DNA of 22,168 bases from a virus. Below are positions 839-11,454 of the stretch, one piece after another. The stretch's first letter is position 1, and every line of letters begins with the position of its first letter. Under the pieces are notes generated by a model that had not been told where the DNA came from, ran no database searches, and saw nothing but the letters and a program-made list of their open reading frames with translations. The DNA lies in the IMG/VR virus record IMGVR_UViG_3300009081_000045, positions 1-22,168 of that record; one strand, 5' to 3'. The translations under genes were made by a program, and so were the position numbers.

Positions 839-868
839 TTGTTATATTAAATTTTTATATTAATTTTG
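839..868 (+). promoter_or_regulatory. Strong Bacteroidetes-type promoter for the early small-gene operon
   Basis: TTG at 839-841 and TAATTTTG at 861-868 are separated by exactly 19 bp, matching the TTTG-N19-TAnnTTTG consensus. The first ATG is 24 nt downstream at 892, preceded by AAAGGA, an unusually good Shine-Dalgarno-like site for this genome. Genes from 892 to about 4040 follow with no other clear promoter, so this probably drives them all. Confidence 0.75.
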
Positions 869-891
869 GTCTATAATTAAAAACAAAGGAT

Positions 892-1095
892 ATGATAAAC
901 ATTAGTAAATCAGTAGAAGAAAGAGCAATTAACTTAATAATTAACGGAGTTGATGCAATAGAGGCGGTTAAACAAGCTATTAACGAAGAACAAAAGTTAA
1001 TCGAAGAAATGATAGCTCAACAAACTGAAAGAAGCGTAAAGGCTAAAAATCAAATTTGCAAGAATGTATATGGTTTAATTCATTTAACTTATTAA
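892..1095 (+). CDS. Small hypothetical protein, first gene of the early operon
   Basis: No family is recognised. The 67-residue product is mostly predicted helix: residues 1-45 alternate short hydrophobic patches with Glu/Lys (SVEERAINLIINGVDAIEAV), followed by a more basic tail with one Cys. The ATG at 892 is chosen because it lies 24 nt after a consensus promoter and directly after AAAGGA. The next gene follows after 2 nt. The first position after a strong promoter suggests early expression, and small helical proteins there often modulate the host, but no function can be assigned. Confidence 0.7.
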   Translation: MINISKSVEERAINLIINGVDAIEAVKQAINEEQKLIEEMIAQQTERSVKAKNQICKNVYGLIHLTY

Positions 1096-1097
1096 TT

Positions 1098-1319
1098 ATG
1101 GGGTTTACTACTCATTTTTGGAAATGTAAAGAATGCGAAAAATCAATACTTTACACCAGTAAACAAAAACATCCAAGCCTAACTCATTTATGTTATGAGG
1201 GTCAATTAAATAAAATAATAGGTTTTCAAATATATTTAAACGAAAAAGGATTAATTACAAATTACGACTGGGATTTTGAAAAAGAGGCTAAAACATTTTT
1301 AAAAATTATTAAATTATGA
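1098..1319 (+). CDS. Small putative zinc-finger protein
   Basis: The frame is open from ATG 1056, but I place the start at ATG 1098, giving 73 residues. This avoids overlapping the previous gene and puts the start 2 nt after its stop. The N-terminus has WKCKECEKS (Cys10, Cys13) and then THLC (His30, Cys32), a C-x2-C...H-x-C arrangement suited to one zinc ion. The C-terminal half is mixed and mostly helical. Arg is absent and Lys abundant, with AT-rich codons. The stop overlaps the next start as ATGA. The function is unknown; nucleic-acid or protein binding through the finger is possible. Confidence 0.65.
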   Translation: MGFTTHFWKCKECEKSILYTSKQKHPSLTHLCYEGQLNKIIGFQIYLNEKGLITNYDWDFEKEAKTFLKIIKL

Positions 1320-1516
1320 AAGATTATTGCGTTACATTAAGAATTACAAAACCGGATTTGTCATCTTATAAAATTAAATTTAATGATGCTATTGTAATTA
1401 AGCGTGAAGATGGAATTTTAGTTAGGCACATGACTTTAGGGGGTGAACTTTTAGCGTATTATCCTTTAACATGGGTTATTGAAGTTATTAAAGTTGATAT
1501 AAAAGAAAACAATTAA
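1316..1516 (+). CDS. Small hypothetical protein, beta-rich
   Basis: This 66-residue protein (MKDYCVTLRITKPDLSSYKI...) overlaps the previous gene by ATGA, indicating translational coupling. The pattern of alternating hydrophobic and polar residues (CVTLRITK, YKIKFND, VIEVIKVDIK) suggests a small beta-sandwich or OB-like fold. No family, signal peptide or membrane segment is seen. Confidence 0.65.
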   Translation: MKDYCVTLRITKPDLSSYKIKFNDAIVIKREDGILVRHMTLGGELLAYYPLTWVIEVIKVDIKENN

Positions 1517-1527
1517 AAACAAACATT

Positions 1528-1674
1528 ATGAAAAAACAAACAGGAATCTTTATTAATTTAGCTTTAATAGTAATTGGTTACAGTTACGAAAACTGGTTAT
1601 TATTAGGTGCTGGCGTATTATGTTTATCTTTAGTATTAATTTCTAAAACTAAAAGAGATGAAGTCAAAAATTAA
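1528..1674 (+). CDS. Small two-helix membrane protein
   Basis: This 48-residue ORF begins MKKQTGIFINLALIVIGYSY and continues through ENWLLLGAGVLCLSLVLIS to a basic tail TKRDEVKN. Two hydrophobic stretches (about 7-18 and 23-39) separated by a short polar turn predict an integral inner-membrane hairpin with a charged, probably cytoplasmic C-terminus. It lies 11 nt after the previous stop and overlaps the next start by 17 nt, consistent with a genuine operon gene. The function is unknown; small phage membrane proteins often act in exclusion or lysis timing. Confidence 0.6.
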   Translation: MKKQTGIFINLALIVIGYSYENWLLLGAGVLCLSLVLISKTKRDEVKN

Positions 1675-1828
1675 AAACGTGGTTAACACGTATTTCCCAC
1701 ACCGTCCTAACGTAGCTTATTTAAAGCGCAAATGGGTAACTAAAATTTGTCCTGAAGATAAAGGCGGTTCGTTCAACGAAAAGCTATACAATGATTATTT
1801 AGACGCTATAATAAATTACACAAAATGA
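1658..1828 (+). CDS. Small basic hypothetical protein
   Basis: This 56-residue product, MKSKIKNVVNTYFPHRPNVA..., is basic in its first half (KRKWVTK) and ends in a helix LYNDYLDAIINYTK. It overlaps the membrane protein upstream by 17 nt and the next gene by ATGA, leaving no gap in this operon. It uses the CGT, ACG and GTA codons typical of the phage core genes. No family is recognised. Confidence 0.55.
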   Translation: MKSKIKNVVNTYFPHRPNVAYLKRKWVTKICPEDKGGSFNEKLYNDYLDAIINYTK

Positions 1829-2094
1829 ACTGGCAAATTAAGCAAAAACGAACAAAACAAGTTACAGTTACGTTCGAATGGACAGAGAAAGGTGATTTAA
1901 TATCTATTTTAAGCGATTTAAGCGCGTTAATTAGCTCGGGAGTAGAAACGCACCACAATCAAAAGAAAAGCATTCTAACGGAAGATAAATGGCACGAAGT
2001 AGAATTTAGCCAAAAGTACGTGGATAAAATTCATGAAGAAGTAGAATCTGATATTAATGGAGAATTGAAATTAGTAATTAAAAGTAAAATTTAA
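1825..2094 (+). CDS. Small hypothetical protein, last gene before the repeat array
   Basis: This 89-residue protein (MNWQIKQKRTKQVTVTFEWTE...) starts in an ATGA overlap and ends inside the first copy of the boundary repeat: its TAA is the TAA of TTTAAATC. It contains two predicted strands (QVTVTFEW, GELKLVIKSK) around a helix (LISILSDLSALISSG). No catalytic motif is seen. It marks the left edge of the cassette array. Confidence 0.6.
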   Translation: MNWQIKQKRTKQVTVTFEWTEKGDLISILSDLSALISSGVETHHNQKKSILTEDKWHEVEFSQKYVDKIHEEVESDINGELKLVIKSKI

Positions 2095-2105
2095 ATCAGA
2101 ATAGA

Positions 2106-2279
2106 ATGAATGAGGAACAAAAAGAAATAATATTACTTGGCTCAAAAGAAGAAATATTAAACAAGTATACTGATTATGATGGTATCATTGATAGGTCACA
2201 AGCATTGATAGCAATGCAAGAATACGCAGAGCTTTACTATTTAGCCAAAACTAAAAAACAAACCTTTAAATCAGAATAG
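2106..2279 (+). CDS. Cassette gene 1, small hypothetical protein
   Basis: The ATG is part of repeat copy 1 and the stop TAG is part of copy 2. The 57-residue product (MNEEQKEIILLGSKEEILNKY...) is acidic and helical in its N-terminal half and ends YLAKTKKQTFKSE, where the last five residues are encoded by the repeat. No family is recognised. Arg is a single AGG codon and no ACG Thr codon is used, unlike the replication and terminase genes. Confidence 0.65.
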   Translation: MNEEQKEIILLGSKEEILNKYTDYDGIIDRSQALIAMQEYAELYYLAKTKKQTFKSE

Positions 2280-2280
2280 A

Positions 2281-2475
2281 ATGAAAACAGCAGTAGAGTG
2301 GTTAGTACAGGAATTACATGACAATGGATATTTCCATTATGGAGTTCCTGAAGATATAGTTAAGATAGCCGAAGGAATGGAGAAAACACAAGAAGCCAAA
2401 GAATATTTAAAAGGCTTTAGAGATGGTAAAGAATATGAAATAAAAATGAAACAATTAACCTTTAAATCAGAATAG
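2281..2475 (+). CDS. Cassette gene 2, conserved small helical protein
   Basis: The 64-residue product begins MKTAVEWLVQELHDNGYFHY, a start I associate with short hypothetical proteins common in Flavobacteriia and their phages, though no function is known. The middle (PEDIVKIAEGMEKTQEAKEYLKGFRDGKEYEIKM) is a likely long helix or helical hairpin. It begins on the repeat ATG and ends TFKSE from the next repeat. The resemblance is from memory and not verified. Confidence 0.7.
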   Translation: MKTAVEWLVQELHDNGYFHYGVPEDIVKIAEGMEKTQEAKEYLKGFRDGKEYEIKMKQLTFKSE

Positions 2476-2476
2476 A

Positions 2477-2824
2477 ATGGAAGATTTATTTAAAATTGAA
2501 CCGCAAAAACTACGCAGAATGAATCAAAAAGAATTTATAGAGAAAACAAAATCTGTTTTGGAAAAAATATACAATGTTTATTCTCAAGGATGGCAAAATA
2601 GACATTTAACTGATGATGAATTTCCTGAAGAAAGTGTATGTGATAAATGTACAGGATGCGGTTTATTTATTGACAATGGAGAAGAAAAAGAATGTTTTCA
2701 ACATTGGGAAAATGGAGATTGTTATCATAGATTTTGTGATTATGAACAGATTGGTATAGATTTAGAAAATCATATTGAAGACATATGTGATTTACTTTCA
2801 GTAGATGAAATAATTAACCTTTAA
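2477..2824 (+). CDS. Cassette gene 3, Cys-rich acidic protein
   Basis: This is the largest cassette product (115 residues). A central Cys cluster, CDKCTGCGLFID then KECFQHWENGDCYHRFC, provides CxxCxxC plus three further Cys and nearby His, a likely zinc- or metal-binding core. The flanks are helical and acidic (NHIEDICDLLSVDEIINL). It terminates at the TAA inside CTTTAAATC, a different frame of the repeat from its neighbours, so it lacks the TFKSE tail. No family is recognised. Confidence 0.7.
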   Translation: MEDLFKIEPQKLRRMNQKEFIEKTKSVLEKIYNVYSQGWQNRHLTDDEFPEESVCDKCTGCGLFIDNGEEKECFQHWENGDCYHRFCDYEQIGIDLENHIEDICDLLSVDEIINL

Positions 2825-2835
2825 ATCAGAATAGA

Positions 2836-3036
2836 ATGAGAAACATTAAATTTAAACTACATAAAATTGTAGGTAAGTGGGTGAATGATGATATAGATAT
2901 CATCCCATCAATAAAATTAAGAACTGGTAGTAAATCAAATGAAACCACATCTGTAACAACAACAATGGTGTGTTTAGCATGGTTAAAATGGGCTATTGGT
3001 ATATCAGTTAGTAAAATAACCTTTAAATCAGAATAG
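2836..3036 (+). CDS. Cassette gene 4, basic small protein
   Basis: This 66-residue protein (MRNIKFKLHKIVGKWVNDD...) is basic at the N-terminus, has a Ser/Thr-rich middle (SNETTSVTTTMVC) and a hydrophobic stretch LAWLKWAIGISVSK that could be a short membrane-associated helix. It ends TFKSE by reading through repeat copy 5. The function is unknown. Confidence 0.6.
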   Translation: MRNIKFKLHKIVGKWVNDDIDIIPSIKLRTGSKSNETTSVTTTMVCLAWLKWAIGISVSKITFKSE

Positions 3037-3037
3037 A

Positions 3038-3109
3038 ATGGAAATAGTATTAATAAGTATAATGAGTGCTTGTGTTGGGTTTATGCTTGGAATATGGTGG
3101 AATAATTAA
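3038..3109 (+). CDS. Cassette gene 5, 23-residue membrane microprotein
   Basis: This 23-codon ORF (MEIVLISIMSACVGFMLGIW plus WNN) starts exactly on a repeat ATG and stops at TAA 2 nt into the next repeat. It is a single hydrophobic segment with small residues and a Trp pair at the interface, a textbook membrane microprotein. That both ends coincide with the array repeat is the main support, since the ORF is too short for statistics. Confidence 0.55.
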   Translation: MEIVLISIMSACVGFMLGIWWNN

Positions 3110-3127
3110 CCTTTAAATCAGAATAGA

Positions 3128-3223
3128 ATGGCAGAAGAAGCAAAAATGGCTTTATTACTGGCTGCGGTTGGTTTTATAGCAATAGTAATTGGATCTATTT
3201 ATAATAAAATAAACGAAAAATGA
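3128..3223 (+). CDS. Cassette gene 6, 31-residue membrane microprotein
   Basis: This product (MAEEAKMALLLAAVGFIAIV then IGSIYNKINEK) has an acidic N-terminus, one transmembrane helix (about 8-24) and a basic tail, predicting one membrane pass. It begins on the last repeat ATG. Its TGA overlaps the next start as ATGA, so the array joins the rest of the operon here without a repeat copy. Confidence 0.6.
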   Translation: MAEEAKMALLLAAVGFIAIVIGSIYNKINEK

Positions 3224-3513
3224 AAACAGAAGTAACTTTAAAAGAATTGTATTTAACGCGTACGCCTTTTGCTATTATAAAAGCGGAAGAGTTTGGAGGC
3301 ACAATTTACTCTTTAGTATTTAGAAACCAGGGAATCAAAACATTTGAAATAGAAAAAGACGAAATAAACTATTTCTTTACTATTCAATCTAAGGCTAAGA
3401 AAATAGATTTTGGATATGAAGGTAGCGTGTTTAAATTTTTTGACTTTAAAAACAAGTTAAGCGTAGTAACAAGGCATCAATTTATTGAAGGTTTAAGACG
3501 TGGCGTAAAATGA
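3220..3513 (+). CDS. Small hypothetical protein
   Basis: This 97-residue protein (MKTEVTLKELYLTRTPFAII...) looks like a compact alpha/beta domain with strands IYSLVFRN, IKTFEIEKDEINYFFTI and VFKFFDFKNKLSVV, and a basic C-terminal helix FIEGLRRGVK. Core-type codons (ACG, CGT, GTA) reappear here after the array. ATGA overlaps join it to both neighbours. No family is recognised. Confidence 0.65.
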   Translation: MKTEVTLKELYLTRTPFAIIKAEEFGGTIYSLVFRNQGIKTFEIEKDEINYFFTIQSKAKKIDFGYEGSVFKFFDFKNKLSVVTRHQFIEGLRRGVK

Positions 3514-3638
3514 AAGTAAGACGTAATTTAACGCGGTTTAAACTATCTTCAAAGTGTGTAAGATATAAATACTTAATGCGCAGCTGGAAAAGTAATTTAA
3601 AAGTAACAATAGAAAGAATAAATTTAGAAAACGATTAA
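3510..3638 (+). CDS. Very basic 42-residue protein
   Basis: The product (MKVRRNLTRFKLSSKCVRYK...) has 13 Lys/Arg and few acidic residues, suggesting binding to nucleic acid or a membrane surface. It starts in an ATGA overlap and the following gene starts 2 nt after its TAA, which supports it as a real gene despite its size. No family is recognised. Confidence 0.5.
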   Translation: MKVRRNLTRFKLSSKCVRYKYLMRSWKSNLKVTIERINLEND

Positions 3639-3640
3639 TT

Positions 3641-3790
3641 ATGAAAGTATATTATTTAACTGAAGTAGAAAGAATCCACGATCAACAAACAAATTTAACG
3701 TATTACAGAGCGTTTTATTCAAATGGATTATTAGAAATAGGCGAAATATTTGAAATTAATTCTGCAATACCAACAGTAATTATAAAATAA
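3641..3790 (+). CDS. Small hypothetical protein
   Basis: The 49-residue ORF (MKVYYLTEVERIHDQQTNLT...) is packed tightly between neighbours, 2 nt after the previous stop and 7 nt before the next start. The predicted content is mostly strand (VYYLTEV, LTYYRAFYSNG, PTVIIK), with no Cys and no membrane segment. The function is unknown. Confidence 0.5.
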   Translation: MKVYYLTEVERIHDQQTNLTYYRAFYSNGLLEIGEIFEINSAIPTVIIK

Positions 3791-3797
3791 AAGTAAA

Positions 3798-4040
3798 ATG
3801 AAAAAAGTATTATTTATCGGATTAGCTTGTTTAAGTTTAACCAGCTGCTCAAAAGAATGTAATTGCGGAACTATTACAAATGATGAGATAATTTTAGATG
3901 CAAATAACAATACGTGTTATACGTTGACGGTTAGGAATTCGTGTTCGGGTAATTCTAAGACTTGGTGTTTTGATTACTCGGTATGGTTTGAAGGAAATGT
4001 AGGTGAAAATTTTTGTGTTACGAATGTAGATAGTTGGTAA
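3798..4040 (+). CDS. Cys-rich phage lipoprotein
   Basis: This 80-residue protein has a clear lipoprotein signal: MKK, hydrophobic VLFIGLACLSL and a lipobox LTSC with the lipidated Cys17. The mature 64-residue part carries six further Cys (21, 23, 40, 49, 57, 73), enough for three disulfides in the periplasm or at the surface. SKE after Cys17 loosely resembles the charged lipoprotein export signal that sends Bacteroidetes lipoproteins to the cell surface. As the last gene of the early operon it is a candidate superinfection-exclusion or host-surface factor (inference, by analogy with other phage lipoproteins). Confidence 0.75.
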   Translation: MKKVLFIGLACLSLTSCSKECNCGTITNDEIILDANNNTCYTLTVRNSCSGNSKTWCFDYSVWFEGNVGENFCVTNVDSW

Positions 4041-4063
4041 TTAAAAAATAATTACTATATTTG
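4034..4063 (+). promoter_or_regulatory. Promoter of the replication operon
   Basis: TTG (4034-4036), a 19-bp spacer and TATATTTG (4056-4063) form a near-perfect Bacteroidetes promoter. The -33 box lies at the end of the lipoprotein gene. The expected start is close to 4069, the first base of the leader hairpin. Confidence 0.75.
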
Positions 4064-4068
4064 TGAAC

Positions 4069-4160
4069 GGTTACGTCTGACACTATATAACCGAAAAGAA
4101 GTTATTAGCCTTTTAAATGAATGCGAAGTCAGACGCGCAGGATTTTAAGAGGCTTTTTTA
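4069..4160 (+). ncRNA. Structured leader RNA with complementary hairpin loops
   Basis: Hairpin 1 is GGTTA (4069-4073) with TAACC (4088-4092). Hairpin 2 is the terminator stem (4107-4117 with 4144-4154). The loop of hairpin 1 contains CGTCTGAC (4074-4081), which is exactly complementary over 8 nt to GTCAGACG (4128-4135) in the loop of hairpin 2. The RNA could therefore form a kissing-loop or pseudoknot. It lies between a strong promoter and the first replication gene, so it probably governs read-through into that operon, or is an independent short RNA. No known family is recognised. Confidence 0.6.
4107..4159 (+). terminator. Terminator/attenuator before the replication genes
   Basis: AGCCTTTTAAA (4107-4117) pairs with TTTAAGAGGCT (4144-4154) over 11 positions, with one T-G wobble, and runs into TTTTTT (4154-4159). 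The 26-nt loop carries the 8-nt element complementary to the upstream loop. The next start codon is only 13 nt after the T run, so the hairpin can act as an attenuator. Confidence 0.7.
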
Positions 4161-4172
4161 TTTTATACAAAA

Positions 4173-4766
4173 ATGGCAAAAGACAAAAAAGGATTTATTT
4201 TATATTGTGATGTTATTCACACCGTTGAAAAGTTAACGGATGAACAAGCTGGTAAATTGTTTAAGCATATTTTAAAGTATGTAAATGACCAAGATCCTAT
4301 TCCTGAAGATATAATTACGGAAATAGCATTCGAGCCTATTAAACAAAGTTTAAAACGTGATTTACAGAAATACGAAGGTATTCGAGTAAAGAATAAAGAA
4401 AACGCATTAAAGCGATGGAATGCGACCGCATCCGAACGCATACCAACGGATACCAAAAATGCCGATAGAGATAAAGATAGAGTAATAGATAAAGAAATAG
4501 ATAGTATAGAAGAACGTAAAAGCAAGTTTTACGCTTCGCTTTCTTTGTTTGTAAATGAGTATCCTAAAAAAATGCTACGAGAATTTTACGATTACTGGAC
4601 TGAACACGGGGTTAAAGATAAAAAGCTTAGATTTGAAAAAGAAAAAACATTCGGTATAGAACAACGCTTGCGAACTTGGTACAATAGAAACCCTAAACAA
4701 TACGACCAAGACAACGACCCGAACCCGCCCGAATATTATATCGCTAAAGCACAAGGATTATGTTAA
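4173..4766 (+). CDS. DUF6291-like phage replication-region protein
   Basis: This 197-residue protein opens with KGFILYCDVIHTVEKLTDEQ and AGKLFKHILKYVND, the pattern of the DUF6291 domain (about residues 6-70) found in phage replication modules of Bacteroidetes and Firmicutes. A highly charged linker (about 70-118, rich in Lys, Arg, Asp, Glu) leads to a second helical domain (about 118-185, YPKKMLREFYDYWTEHG) like the C-termini of replication initiator or replisome-organizer proteins. It overlaps the ATPase gene by 7 nt. The inferred role is origin binding or helicase loading. The DUF assignment is from pattern memory, and the biochemical role is not shown by sequence. Confidence 0.7.
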   Translation: MAKDKKGFILYCDVIHTVEKLTDEQAGKLFKHILKYVNDQDPIPEDIITEIAFEPIKQSLKRDLQKYEGIRVKNKENALKRWNATASERIPTDTKNADRDKDRVIDKEIDSIEERKSKFYASLSLFVNEYPKKMLREFYDYWTEHGVKDKKLRFEKEKTFGIEQRLRTWYNRNPKQYDQDNDPNPPEYYIAKAQGLC

Positions 4767-5767
4767 AAACAGCTGGAGACTCAATAGACTATTTATTGAA
4801 CTATCGTAATGGTAAAATAAAACAAGGTTTAGAAATAGGATGCGATTTAGACAATTATTTAAGATTCAAACCTAAACAACTAAATATCATTTTAGGACAC
4901 GACAACGTAGGTAAAACGTATTGGATAAATTGGTACTTTTTAAATTTGGCACTAAAACACGAATTAACGTTTTGTATCTGGAGTGGTGAAAATCAAAAAG
5001 GTCAAATATTACGTGATTTAATTCAAATGTATTCAGGTCAACAATTTAAAACACTTACTGAAGAAGAAATAATGACTTATTCAACTTATTTAGAACAATA
5101 CTTTCAATTTGTAGACAACTCAAAACTATACAAGCCTGAAGAATTGTTAAAGATATTTGAAGATAGTAATTGCAAAGTAGGTTTAATTGACCCGTTCACG
5201 GGTTTAGATAGGCAAATGACGTATGAAGGTAACTATGAATTCATGAATAAAGCGCGTCAAATGGTTAATTTTACGGGAATGACTTTGTACATAAACACGC
5301 ACCCGAATACTGAAAGCGGTAGGGGTGCAAATATTTACACGGAAGGCGAATGGAAGGGTAACTTAAAAGCACCGTTAAAAGACCATATTGAAGGTGGTAA
5401 AGCATTTAGTAACCGTTGCGACGATTTCTTTGTAATTCATCGTTTAGTAAAAGACCCTATAATGAAATATTCAACTTGGATCAACGTAGAAAAAATAAAA
5501 GACGTTGAAACAGTCGGTAAACACACTGGATTAAACGAACCAGTAATGTGTAATTTTAATTCGGGTTTAGGGTTTGTAATTGGTAACGTTGACCCGCTAC
5601 AAAAACACCGACCTAAAAGCGTAAAATCAAATAGTTTTCCTGTACGTAATCCTGATATTGTAAACGGAAAAGAATTACTTTCGTTTAGCGAACGAATGAA
5701 GCAAGGCGCATTTGAAGAATTAAAACCAATTGAAAACAAGAACGGCGAAATGACTATGCCATTTTAA
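4760..5767 (+). CDS. DnaB/RepA-like RecA-fold replicative ATPase
   Basis: This 335-residue protein has a RecA-type core. Walker A is GHDNVGKT (46-53), followed by the strand TFCIWSGENQ with the presumed catalytic Glu77, then Walker B VGLIDPF (140-146, Asp144) and the sensor strand MTLYINTHPNTES (174-186). The order matches hexameric helicases of the DnaB/RepA class. It lacks a separate primase or DnaB N-terminal domain, so it would be a stand-alone helicase core, probably loaded by the upstream DUF6291-like protein. The C-terminal 60 residues are polar and end ENKNGEMTMPF. A KaiC-like recombination ATPase is a less likely alternative. Confidence 0.8.
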   Translation: MLKTAGDSIDYLLNYRNGKIKQGLEIGCDLDNYLRFKPKQLNIILGHDNVGKTYWINWYFLNLALKHELTFCIWSGENQKGQILRDLIQMYSGQQFKTLTEEEIMTYSTYLEQYFQFVDNSKLYKPEELLKIFEDSNCKVGLIDPFTGLDRQMTYEGNYEFMNKARQMVNFTGMTLYINTHPNTESGRGANIYTEGEWKGNLKAPLKDHIEGGKAFSNRCDDFFVIHRLVKDPIMKYSTWINVEKIKDVETVGKHTGLNEPVMCNFNSGLGFVIGNVDPLQKHRPKSVKSNSFPVRNPDIVNGKELLSFSERMKQGAFEELKPIENKNGEMTMPF

Positions 5768-6068: not shown

Positions 6069-6427
6069 AAACAAATGAATTAAGAATAGGAAACTATTTA
6101 AACGGAAAACAAGGTCACGTTATAGTGTCTGAAATTAGAACAAATAATAGTGTAAAAATACACGATAATACGAGTAGGTTTTATGTTGGAATTTGTTTGA
6201 TACCTATTAAAATAACAACAGAGTGGTTATTGAAATTAGGATTTGAATATAATGATAATATAGGTCTATATCAAAATGGTGGATTTGATGTTGATATAGA
6301 AGATGATGTATATTGTCATTTCTACATGAATGATTACGGCGATTGGTATAAATATATTGAATACGTTCATCAGCTTCAAAATTTATACTTTGCACTTACG
6401 GGTGAAGAACTAACGGTTGAACTATGA
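6065..6427 (+). CDS. Conserved Bacteroidetes phage hypothetical protein
   Basis: This 120-residue protein has a recognisable layout: ELRIGNYLNGK at the start, a middle ITTEWLLKLGFEY, and the ending YVHQLQNLYFALTGEELTVE. Proteins with this pattern are widespread in Bacteroidetes phages and prophages, without a known function. The first three quarters use only AGA/AGG for Arg and are AT-richer than neighbours, while the last 15 codons use ACG. ATGA overlaps link it to both neighbours. Confidence 0.75.
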   Translation: MKTNELRIGNYLNGKQGHVIVSEIRTNNSVKIHDNTSRFYVGICLIPIKITTEWLLKLGFEYNDNIGLYQNGGFDVDIEDDVYCHFYMNDYGDWYKYIEYVHQLQNLYFALTGEELTVEL

Positions 6428-6951
6428 AAAATAAAAAATGTAAATACTGCCGTCAACAATTCCAACCAATTACAACGCTGCAAAAAAATTGCTTCGACCC
6501 TAATTGTGTAACTGAATGGATAAACGATGTAAAACAAAAGAACTGGCAAAAGAAAAAAGCGAAGTTAAAAGCCGATTTAATGACCGTTCAAGACTATATT
6601 AAATTAGCGCAGCAAGTATTTAATAAATACATTCGTTTACGAGATGCTGGCAACCTTTGTATATCGTGCCAAAAAAAGCCGTTAAAAGAAAACGCTGGAC
6701 ACTTCTACAATGCTAATAATCATTGGAACGTACGTTTTGACGAACGCAACGTGCATTTACAATGCGAACACTGTAATACTTATTTAAGTGGTAATTTGAT
6801 TGAATACAGAAAGCAATTAATTAACAAGATAGGAATTGAACAATTAACACTTTTAGAGCTGGAAGCTAATAAAACACGGAAGTTTACAATAGACGAATTA
6901 AAGGAAATAATTAACAAGTATAAATTAAAGATTAAACAATATGGAAATTAA
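6424..6951 (+). CDS. ninG: NinG/Rap-family recombination nuclease
   Basis: This 175-residue protein matches the lambda NinG (Rap) family, structure-specific nucleases acting on recombination intermediates. Seen are the N-terminal zinc pair KKCKYC (Cys6, Cys9) with CFDPNC (Cys23, Cys28), the basic helix WQKKKAKLKADLMTVQDYIK, and the HNH-like zinc core with CISCQK (Cys79, Cys82), AGHF (His93), HLQCEHCN (Cys114, Cys117) and SGN. The length is typical of the family. It overlaps both neighbours by a few nt and lies between the replication and ERF/exonuclease genes, consistent with branch processing. Confidence 0.88.
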   Translation: MKNKKCKYCRQQFQPITTLQKNCFDPNCVTEWINDVKQKNWQKKKAKLKADLMTVQDYIKLAQQVFNKYIRLRDAGNLCISCQKKPLKENAGHFYNANNHWNVRFDERNVHLQCEHCNTYLSGNLIEYRKQLINKIGIEQLTLLELEANKTRKFTIDELKEIINKYKLKIKQYGN

Positions 6952-7705: not shown

Positions 7706-7744
7706 TATTTTTTTTAAAACTATTCTTATATTAAAAATTTACAT

Positions 7745-7752
7745 TATATTTG
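7745..7752 (+). promoter_or_regulatory. Promoter of the recombination operon (-7 box)
   Basis: TATATTTG is an exact TAnnTTTG match, 22 bp before the ERF start codon. The -33 region around 7723-7725 reads TTC rather than TTG. The gap 7706-7774 is otherwise very A/T-rich with no terminator hairpin, so read-through from the upstream operon is also possible. Confidence 0.6.
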
Positions 7753-7774: not shown

Positions 7775-8293
7775 ATGAAAAATTTATTAAAAAGTCTGGC
7801 AGCGTTCCAGCAAGAAGTGAAAGTAATTCACAAAGAAACGCAAGGGTACGGGTACTCATATAGTGATCTCCCTAAAATATTTAGCGAAGTAAATCCATTA
7901 CTACAAAAACACGGATTAGGATTTACACAGTTAATTAATTCACAAGACGGATTAAACTATCTTAAAACGGTTTTATTTCACGTTGAAAGCGGTGAAATGA
8001 TTGATTCAAATACTTTAATTCCATACGTACAATTAAAAGGAATGAACGACTTTCAAAGTTTCGGTTCTGGAGTTACGTATTTTCGTAGGTACTGTTTAAG
8101 TTCAATTTTAGGATTAGTAACCGACAAAGATACGGACGCGTCAGGCGAACAGGAAAAACCTAAAAAAGAAAGCTTGGATAATAAAAGGTTTACGGATGCT
8201 TTGAAAGCAATTAACGAAGGTAAAATTACTATCGAAAAGTTAAAAGAGAAATTTCAATTAAGCGAAGCACAAGAAAAAGCCTTGTTATTATGA
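7775..8293 (+). CDS. erf: ERF-family single-strand annealing protein
   Basis: This 172-residue protein matches the ERF family of phage annealing proteins, which coat single strands and pair homologous DNA. Characteristic segments are YSYSDLPKIFSEVNPLLQKH (27-46), HGLGFTQ, and FGSGVTYFRRYCLSSILGLV (96-115) followed by the acidic DKDTDA. The C-terminal 45 residues form a charged linker and a short helical domain. Its TGA overlaps the start of a YqaJ-type exonuclease, the usual two-component arrangement in which the exonuclease makes 3' tails that the annealing protein uses. It has its own promoter. Confidence 0.9.
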   Translation: MKNLLKSLAAFQQEVKVIHKETQGYGYSYSDLPKIFSEVNPLLQKHGLGFTQLINSQDGLNYLKTVLFHVESGEMIDSNTLIPYVQLKGMNDFQSFGSGVTYFRRYCLSSILGLVTDKDTDASGEQEKPKKESLDNKRFTDALKAINEGKITIEKLKEKFQLSEAQEKALLL

Positions 8294-8964
8294 AAGTACG
8301 TTGTTCACAAATCGGCAAAATAATGACGAACCCCCGCACAAAGGGGGAGCGTCTTTCGCTAACTACTAAAAGCTACATTTTAGAATTAGCAATTCAAGAG
8401 AAATACGGAATACATAAAGAGTTCTGGAGTAGATACACGGACAAAGGAAACGAAGTAGAACCCGAAGCGATTAAATTAACTGAAAGTGTTTTAGACGTAG
8501 GCTTTATTTACAAGAATGAAGAACAATTTTTTAATGACTGGGTAACTGGTAAACCTGATGTAAACACGGATGTACTGATTGACGTTAAAAGTTCTTGGGA
8601 TGCGTTTACATTTTTTGAAAAGGTAGTAGAAAACGAACTAAATAACAAAGATTATTACTACCAACTTCAGGGTTATATGTGGCTAACGGACAAACAAGAA
8701 GCTTTATTATGCTATTGTTTAGTTGATACGCCTTTACAAATAGTAGAAGACGAAATTAGAAGGGAACACTGGAAGCAAAACCTAATTAGTGAAAGCAACG
8801 ATTTAAGAGAGTTTGTAGAAGATAAGCATACATTCGGACACATACCTATGGAAAAGCGCGTTAAAACGCACGTAGTAAAGCGTGACGATGAAGTTATTGA
8901 AGCTATTAAAACACGAATAGAAGAATGTAACGAATATTATAACGAAATAATTAAATTAATATGA
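8290..8964 (+). CDS. YqaJ/lambda-type exonuclease
   Basis: This 224-residue protein has the PD-(D/E)xK layout of viral recombination exonucleases: helix with SRYTDKGNEVEPEAI (Glu55, Glu57), the acidic strand TGKPDV (Asp90), the core LIDVKSSW (Asp98, Lys100), and the helix DYYYQLQGYMWL (Gln125, Tyr129) typical of YqaJ proteins. It should digest one strand of duplex ends 5' to 3' to feed the ERF protein, whose gene it overlaps by ATGA. The size is normal and no key residue is missing. Confidence 0.88.
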   Translation: MKVRCSQIGKIMTNPRTKGERLSLTTKSYILELAIQEKYGIHKEFWSRYTDKGNEVEPEAIKLTESVLDVGFIYKNEEQFFNDWVTGKPDVNTDVLIDVKSSWDAFTFFEKVVENELNNKDYYYQLQGYMWLTDKQEALLCYCLVDTPLQIVEDEIRREHWKQNLISESNDLREFVEDKHTFGHIPMEKRVKTHVVKRDDEVIEAIKTRIEECNEYYNEIIKLI

Positions 8965-11016: not shown

Positions 11017-11046
11017 TTGTTTATTTAAAAAGTTATATTAATTTTG
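11017..11046 (+). promoter_or_regulatory. Bacteroidetes-type promoter
   Basis: TTG (11017-11019), a 19-bp spacer and TAATTTTG (11039-11046) repeat the exact geometry and -7 sequence of the promoter at 839-868. The next ATG is 24 nt downstream, the same distance as there, so the two may be co-regulated. Confidence 0.75.
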
Positions 11047-11070: not shown

Positions 11071-11436
11071 ATGAAAAAACGTAACACAACAGTAAAAAAC
11101 ATTGAAGTAAATAATGGCGTAGGATATTTTGATATTGATTGCGGCAAAGGTAAAGAGATGCAATTTCAATTCACGCCTGAATGGATATTAAAAGACGGTG
11201 AATTAGACGGTGTAACAATTAAATTAAGTAAATACGACTTATACGCTGAAGATGGGGCGTTAATAAGTTCTAAGCATTTAAACAAAAGAAACACGAAATT
11301 AATTTGTGAATATATTGAAAGCATTTTAGATAATGATCCGTATTCTTTTGAGTTTGATGAGTACGAATTAATGCAAGAAGAGTTTGATTTTAACCAAGAA
11401 ATGATATTTGAAGAGCGACGTTTGTCGAATATTTAA
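11071..11436 (+). CDS. Hypothetical acidic protein
   Basis: This 121-residue protein has a beta-rich first half (KNIEVNNGVGYFDIDCGKGK, MQFQFTPEWI, VTIKLSKYDLYA) and a strongly acidic C-terminus (about 100-121, with repeated Phe-Glu/Asp pairs such as FEFDEYELMQEEFDF). It is the first gene after a consensus promoter. An acidic tail of this kind can mimic nucleic acid, but nothing else supports an anti-host function. No family is recognised. Confidence 0.65.
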   Translation: MKKRNTTVKNIEVNNGVGYFDIDCGKGKEMQFQFTPEWILKDGELDGVTIKLSKYDLYAEDGALISSKHLNKRNTKLICEYIESILDNDPYSFEFDEYELMQEEFDFNQEMIFEERRLSNI

Positions 11437-11454
11437 AAAAATAGTATAACTTTG
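11421..11454 (+). promoter_or_regulatory. Putative promoter overlapping a gene end
   Basis: TAACTTTG (11447-11454) matches TAnnTTTG, and TTTG at 11421-11424 lies 22 bp upstream, slightly longer than the 19 bp of the other promoters. The GTG taken as the next start is only 5 nt after the -7 box, so transcription would begin at or inside that codon. Confidence 0.5.

Follow-up and report, generated by a model that had tools for sequence, protein, structure and literature searches.

The ninR genes of lambda are interlinked, and the boundary or linker sequences of lambdoid phages differ from one boundary to the next; for these phages, exchange at linkers is a long-standing idea. Promoter-early stem-loops (PeSLs) are reportedly the subject of work by Arbiol in 2010 and Comeau in 2014. 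They are described as repeats between small genes of T4-type phages, which mediate shuffling by recombination between copies (PMC4503421). Cluster K mycobacteriophages carry SAS, a 13-bp sequence (GGGATAGGAGCCC) with an SD-like core, found essentially in one phage cluster; SAS has been proposed only as a translation signal, gene turnover at it being undemonstrated (PMC3203893). Campylobacter group II phages have modules of 28-55 kb and kb-long repeat regions, and the same source cites, in general terms, recombination at linkers (PMC4546147).

The DNA analysed here, called the window throughout, is the whole of IMG/VR record IMGVR_UViG_3300009081_000045 (22,168 bp). Seven genes at 2086-3130 are linked in it by six plus-strand copies of one short sequence (TTTAAATCAGAATAGAATG; called the joint), which in the window reads AACCTTTAAATCAGAATAGA-ATG. 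We read this locus, with a probability of roughly 0.78, as an open-ended cassette array within a phage operon, the joint being both a stop-start module and the crossover site by which units move among phages. Array and flanks (window coordinates):

1825..2094, plus strand: left flanking gene, 89 aa, kept in relatives; TAA stop within joint copy 1
2086..2108, plus strand: joint copy 1; 2 mismatches (AAAA for AACC), last 19 nt identical
2106..2279, plus strand: cassette A, 57 aa, M[N/D]EEQKEIILLG...TFKSE
2261..2283, plus strand: joint copy 2, 23/23
2281..2475, plus strand: cassette B, 64 aa, KTAVEWL family
2457..2479, plus strand: joint copy 3, 23/23
2477..2824, plus strand: cassette C, 115 aa
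2816..2838, plus strand: joint copy 4, 23/23
2836..3036, plus strand: cassette D, 66 aa
3018..3040, plus strand: joint copy 5, 23/23
3038..3109, plus strand: cassette E, hydrophobic peptide of 23 aa
3108..3130, plus strand: joint copy 6, 23/23
3128..3223, plus strand: gene F, 31 aa, MAEEAKMALLL...; in relatives it is the resident gene to the right of the array
3220..3513, plus strand: right flanking gene, 97 aa, kept in relatives

A preliminary description of this DNA had reported identical repeats at the junctions of tiny genes, five of them perfect over 23 nt, at spacings of 90 to 359 nt. All of this was borne out: each of the six copies supplies, as its last three bases, the ATG that starts an ORF (57, 64, 115, 66, 23, and 31 aa for copies 1-6), copies 2-6 agree at 23/23 positions, the last 19 nt are identical in all six, and the joint-to-joint spacings are 175, 196, 359, 202, and 90 nt. 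Its statement that copy 1 lacks the first 4 nt was wrong; at those positions copy 1 has AAAA in place of AACC. No joint match was obtained in 100 dinucleotide shuffles of the window. In its stop-start form the joint reads TAG-A-ATG, with the stop one base ahead of the ATG. Over all copies, the upstream stop lies in or at the joint in three frames (core offset 12 for TAG, 2 and -5 for TAA), so the shared element is DNA and not one peptide tail. Selection on the peptide tail (TFKSE) alone is ruled out on the same ground; simple tandem duplication as the origin of the array is ruled out since the array genes are unrelated.

As with PeSLs, the joint copies lie between small genes that get shuffled. 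Unlike PeSLs, which are promoter-terminator motifs of T4-like phages, the joint is without promoter motif or stem-loop, sits at a stop-start overlap, occurs in phages with unrelated terminases, and is accompanied by a second shuffling site inside genes. With lambdoid boundaries it shares small genes chained by overlapping stop and start, and probably also recombination at conserved boundaries; it differs in that a single joint serves repeatedly: six boundaries of the window have it, and elsewhere it precedes about 100 gene families (core copies with at most two mismatches counted). The Campylobacter group II phages likewise have repeats that separate modules whose order changes, but the units here are single small genes, not modules of 28-55 kb. 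Literature searches found no description of the joint or of the KTAVEWL family. New with respect to the literature found are the use of one standard joint at many junctions in unrelated phages and the exchange of half-genes.

Relatives of the home locus were collected via the two flanking proteins, independently of the repeat. Among loci in which the left gene and the 3128 gene are 92-100% identical to those of the window, four hold no unit and one joint only ("empty" site; L005, L103, L110, L156), four hold one unit (L081, L119, L133, L143), L141 holds two, and the window holds five; in L005 and L103, joint copy 1 runs directly into the 3128 gene. L134, whose 3128 gene is 78% identical, holds three units. 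More distant home-locus relatives, 77-84% identical, have no joint (L169, L173, L175, L176, L178). In L129 and L133, KTAVEWL genes meet the left flank without a joint, which indicates other entry points besides the joint. The proposal of the preliminary description that a gene plus its repeat is an interchangeable unit is supported by this turnover at the home locus and by the unlinked neighbours described below; the same unit next to different genes, and gain, loss, and reordering among close relatives, which it had named as supporting observations, were all found, and the contrary arrangement that it had named, identical six genes in fixed order with diverged junctions, was not seen in relatives. 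Two other stretches of the window, 868-1517 and 3790-5627, are replaced or missing in relatives with flanks about 90% identical, and the array is thus one among several variable sites.

Cassettes of the window recur in other contigs. Cassette A has a 97% identical copy in L163, with a different right-hand gene, and is also present in L144, at the same locus, downstream of a KTAVEWL gene. Cassette B has copies of 90-92% identity in L030 and L060, and relatives of its C-half (77-81%) stand behind other N-halves in L071, L225, and L287. A cassette C homologue begins (MEDLFKIEL...) behind a joint where contig L098 ends; cassette D has an 84% identical copy in L001, a contig of 48 kb. Single genes are also common to contigs that otherwise differ: L011 (32 kb) and L045 (118 kb) have one 174-nt gene in common (96.6%), both flanks being dissimilar, and L031 (106 kb) and L032 (32 kb) one 120-nt gene (95.8%) in unrelated surroundings.

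More than one unrelated upstream gene was found for 26 of the 33 recurring families behind joints. A homologous upstream gene was retained in 8/73 pairs at joints (11%; mean over families 5%) vs 2845/6314 pairs at ordinary junctions of the same contigs (45%; family mean 48%; simple ORF caller, pair counts threshold-dependent and non-independent). Where downstream identity was 93-100%, the upstream neighbour was retained in 18% at joints vs 66% at ordinary junctions. Fisher p for joint vs ordinary linkage was 6e-10 (all pairs) and 7e-6 (93-100% subset), values that are indicative given the non-independence of pairs. Pairs sharing the downstream gene show identities of ~0.3 upstream, 0.93-0.99 in the joint, and 0.7-0.9 in the cassette. 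Where the upstream side is what a pair has in common, identity drops to 0.3-0.45 immediately past the ATG. The homology breakpoints coincide exactly with the edges of the joint.

The 19-mer TTTAAATCAGAATAGAATG was found in IMG/VR contigs, in no fewer than 119 stretches and often several times in succession; the reversed 19-mer, used as a control, gave no match in IMG/VR. All joint carriers are metagenomic assemblies, and the counts from pattern searches are of matches listed, so they are lower bounds. Joints lie on a single strand in 126/130 loci; within each of 32 long carrier contigs every copy is on one strand, and the joint read backwards was not found in these contigs. Among the matches listed, 210/211 exact cores have an ATG no more than 9 nt downstream. 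Predicted gene starts differ from the joint by no mismatch in 111 cases, by one in 32, and by two, three, or four in 8-10 each; the counts are bimodal, with a trough at 2-4 and background from 7 up, which makes the joint a discrete unit and no loose consensus. Between copies, the joint is identical over 19-40 nt. Carrier contigs measure from a few kb to 160 kb; a terminase similar to that of the window is absent in 21 of the 32 long carriers, some contigs being fragments.

The nearest matches of the window terminase are in Flavobacterium psychrophilum phages (55%), and this affinity, together with TTG-N19-TAnnTTTG promoter motifs in the window, makes a Bacteroidota host likely for the window phage. 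The carriers are uncultured phages, probably of Flavobacterium-like bacteria; no joint carrier was found among cultured phages. Across ~85,000 bacterial and archaeal species genomes (GTDB, one per species) there was no convincing occurrence of the 19-mer; the two genome-contig matches have one sequence context in common, followed by an 11-codon frame. Origin as a host-derived element was considered and rejected, these two matches lying in an unrelated context, other than that of the element described here.

Upstream of the array lies one promoter motif:

839..868, plus strand: Bacteroidota-type promoter motif TTG-N19-TAnnTTTG

From 868 to 4034 the coding strand has no further motif of this kind, so the array, by motif, is without a promoter of its own. 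Further motifs of this type were observed in the window at 4034-4063, 11017-11046, and 11422-11454, with a related repeat at 7714-7752; the repeated motifs are probable marks of operon starts. The leader of the joint has A at -3, -6, -12, and -13, positions at which A promotes initiation in Flavobacterium johnsoniae (PMC6847099). No hairpin was found in five joints that were folded, energies being no better than those of shuffles (z 0.06 to 1.15). An unstructured initiation leader at a stop-start, without its own promoter motif, suits a plug-in unit in an operon. From these features we infer that the joint drives translation; most likely it is a promoterless stop-start translation module and also a short-homology crossover site.

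The best surviving alternative, which we nonetheless consider unlikely, takes the repeat as merely a conserved translation-initiation site of the SAS kind and the turnover as ordinary phage mosaicism unconnected with it. Joint and SAS are alike as short conserved sequences just 5' of the ATG in many small genes, in a single orientation, with the upstream stop sometimes inside. Such a site would account for a repeat that always stands directly 5' of an ATG on the coding strand, for the fixed distance of the ATG in 93 of the 101 copies listed when the left half of the extended joint alone (CAATACTACAACGAAACCTTTAAATC) was the query, and for an unstructured leader with adenines at the positions favouring initiation in Flavobacterium. 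Unlike SAS, however, AACCTTTAAATCAGAATAGA-ATG is present in unrelated phages and before genes that turn over. Linkage of neighbours at joints is several-fold below that at other junctions of the same contigs, breakpoints match the edges of the repeat, an empty site retains exactly one joint, and mismatch counts are bimodal, not graded. Thr is encoded by ACC in at least 79% of tails vs 8% of Thr codons in the window, a bias that is unnecessary for initiation and that indicates that the DNA itself, beyond the peptide, is kept alike.

Exchange inside genes was seen in the commonest cassette family, KTAVEWL (MK(Q)TAVEW...EQAKEMEKEQI...EQYYNETFKSE), whose 238 distinct genes comprise 184 N-halves and 175 C-halves in 223 combinations. 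N-halves match at 99% or more in 47 pairs, of which 34 differ entirely in their C-halves (below 60% identity) and 12 have the same one. C-halves match at 99% or more in 39 pairs, and 28 of these combine them with unrelated N-halves. Since near-identical halves are joined to unrelated ones, exchange outpaces point mutation. The switch point between N- and C-halves lies in a conserved internal block of about 30 nt (consensus GAACAAGCCAAAGAAATGGAGAAAGAGCAGATA; EQAKEMEKEQI). The earlier reading of the cassettes thus stands for whole genes and has to be widened to exchange within genes, which it had not seen. Comparison of contigs shows gain and loss at a single locus, unlinked neighbours, sharp breakpoints, sharing of units, and reassortment of half-genes; it shows genes and half-genes that are swapped between unrelated phages at joints faster than the DNA mutates.

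For cassette B a small helical structure is predicted (mean pLDDT 74), which gave no match with E below 6 in the PDB. Searches with the cassettes gave nothing above the curated cut-off in Pfam and weak matches in PHROG, except for the cassette of L141 (phrog_21441, unknown function). Among isolates, a KTAVEWL homologue is present only in the Elemovirus phages of Flavobacterium sp. BAL314 (L185, L186, L187), as a single gene near a primase/helicase gene; no joint match was reported in these three regions and their gene order is alike, so the isolates provide no evidence of shuffling. The family forms a natural combinatorial library of half-genes and hints at an arms race.

Recombination genes of the window:

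6424..6951, plus strand: NinG/Rap-like DNA junction endonuclease (phrog_171, E 1.8e-51)
7775..8293, plus strand: Erf-like single-strand annealing protein, candidate recombinase (phrog_2324, E 1e-31)
8290..8964, plus strand: phage recombination exonuclease, candidate partner of Erf

Lambdoid phages, too, have NinG/Rap and an annealing protein of the Erf type. Exchange would proceed via phage single-strand annealing, in the window phage by Erf and the exonuclease, as the preliminary description had supposed. Red-beta requires identity over 23-27 bp, and on diverged DNA an Erf/Exo pair is as efficient at recombination as lambda Red (PMC3945230); joint identities of 23-40 nt fall in the range given for Red-beta. 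Among the 32 long carriers, 14 have Erf. The 18 Erf-less ones have no recognised RecT, and RecA was above cut-off in 2 of them; a single enzyme is therefore insufficient for all carriers.

In the proposed mechanism a unit would consist of a promoterless small gene and one joint copy, the joint holding the upstream stop (which different frames can reach), an A-rich initiation leader of Bacteroidota type, and the next ATG. Any unit inserted between two joints would be read through and translated. Identical over 19-40 nt, the joint could double as a place of crossover. A single crossover linking two copies would delete the unit that lies between them, and a unit would enter by exchange at two copies, or from an excised circle through one; circles as intermediates of exchange are inferred by us. 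Units would thereby circulate among otherwise unrelated phages. The internal KTAVEWL block EQAKEMEKEQI would act likewise, so that N- and C-halves are reassorted.

That a dedicated recombinase brings about this exchange by site-specific recombination at the joint, integron-like or otherwise, is very improbable. The array does recall integron cassettes in its promoterless single-gene units of one orientation, presumably read from a promoter outside, with exact boundaries and an open repertoire, common to unrelated genomes. Unlike integron cassettes, it has no attC-like hairpin and its boundary is a translation joint. A tyrosine integrase (PF00589) was above cut-off in 1 of the 32 long carriers and in none of the genes of the window, in a survey that covered recombinases of the tyrosine type; a site-specific recombinase is accordingly unlikely, and half-gene exchange at a second, unrelated internal block fits homology and not one recognition site. 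The term "recombinase-independent" used in the preliminary description can be kept in the sense of independence from a site-specific recombinase; as worded it cannot. Chimeras formed at the repeat by metagenome assemblers deserve hardly any credence. The carriers are all assemblies, and short-read assembly can go astray at repeats of 20-40 nt; against this, relatives of the home locus have collinear flanks left and right around differing contents, 20 of the 30 recurring N-C combinations are in loci that differ within 300 nt and hence in different genomes, and the same array occurs in contigs from different metagenomes (L129 and L137; L133 and L136).

Tiny genes of unknown function abound in phage genomes, where they come and go. 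How they move so precisely is an old question, with illegitimate joining plus selection set against recombination at conserved boundaries. For the array of cassettes with crossover at the joint, the standard joint, the sharp breakpoints, the empty sites, and the cassettes that a 32-kb and a 118-kb contig have in common open boundary-directed exchange to direct test. We put forward more tentatively, as an idea against which the balance leans slightly, a cassette economy free of site-specific recombinases that extends across unrelated phages, in which standard joints, at the ends of genes and within them, might be kept for reassortment of small genes and half-genes faster than mutation. If true, phages would have at their disposal a combinatorial repertoire of small proteins, perhaps for host takeover or anti-defence. 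The joint can serve as a search handle for cassette repertoires in metagenomes.

A homologue of the recombination exonuclease (MKIRCSQIGKLM...) was itself observed behind a joint in seven contigs (e.g., L004, L025, L052, L066), with six different upstream genes over the seven.
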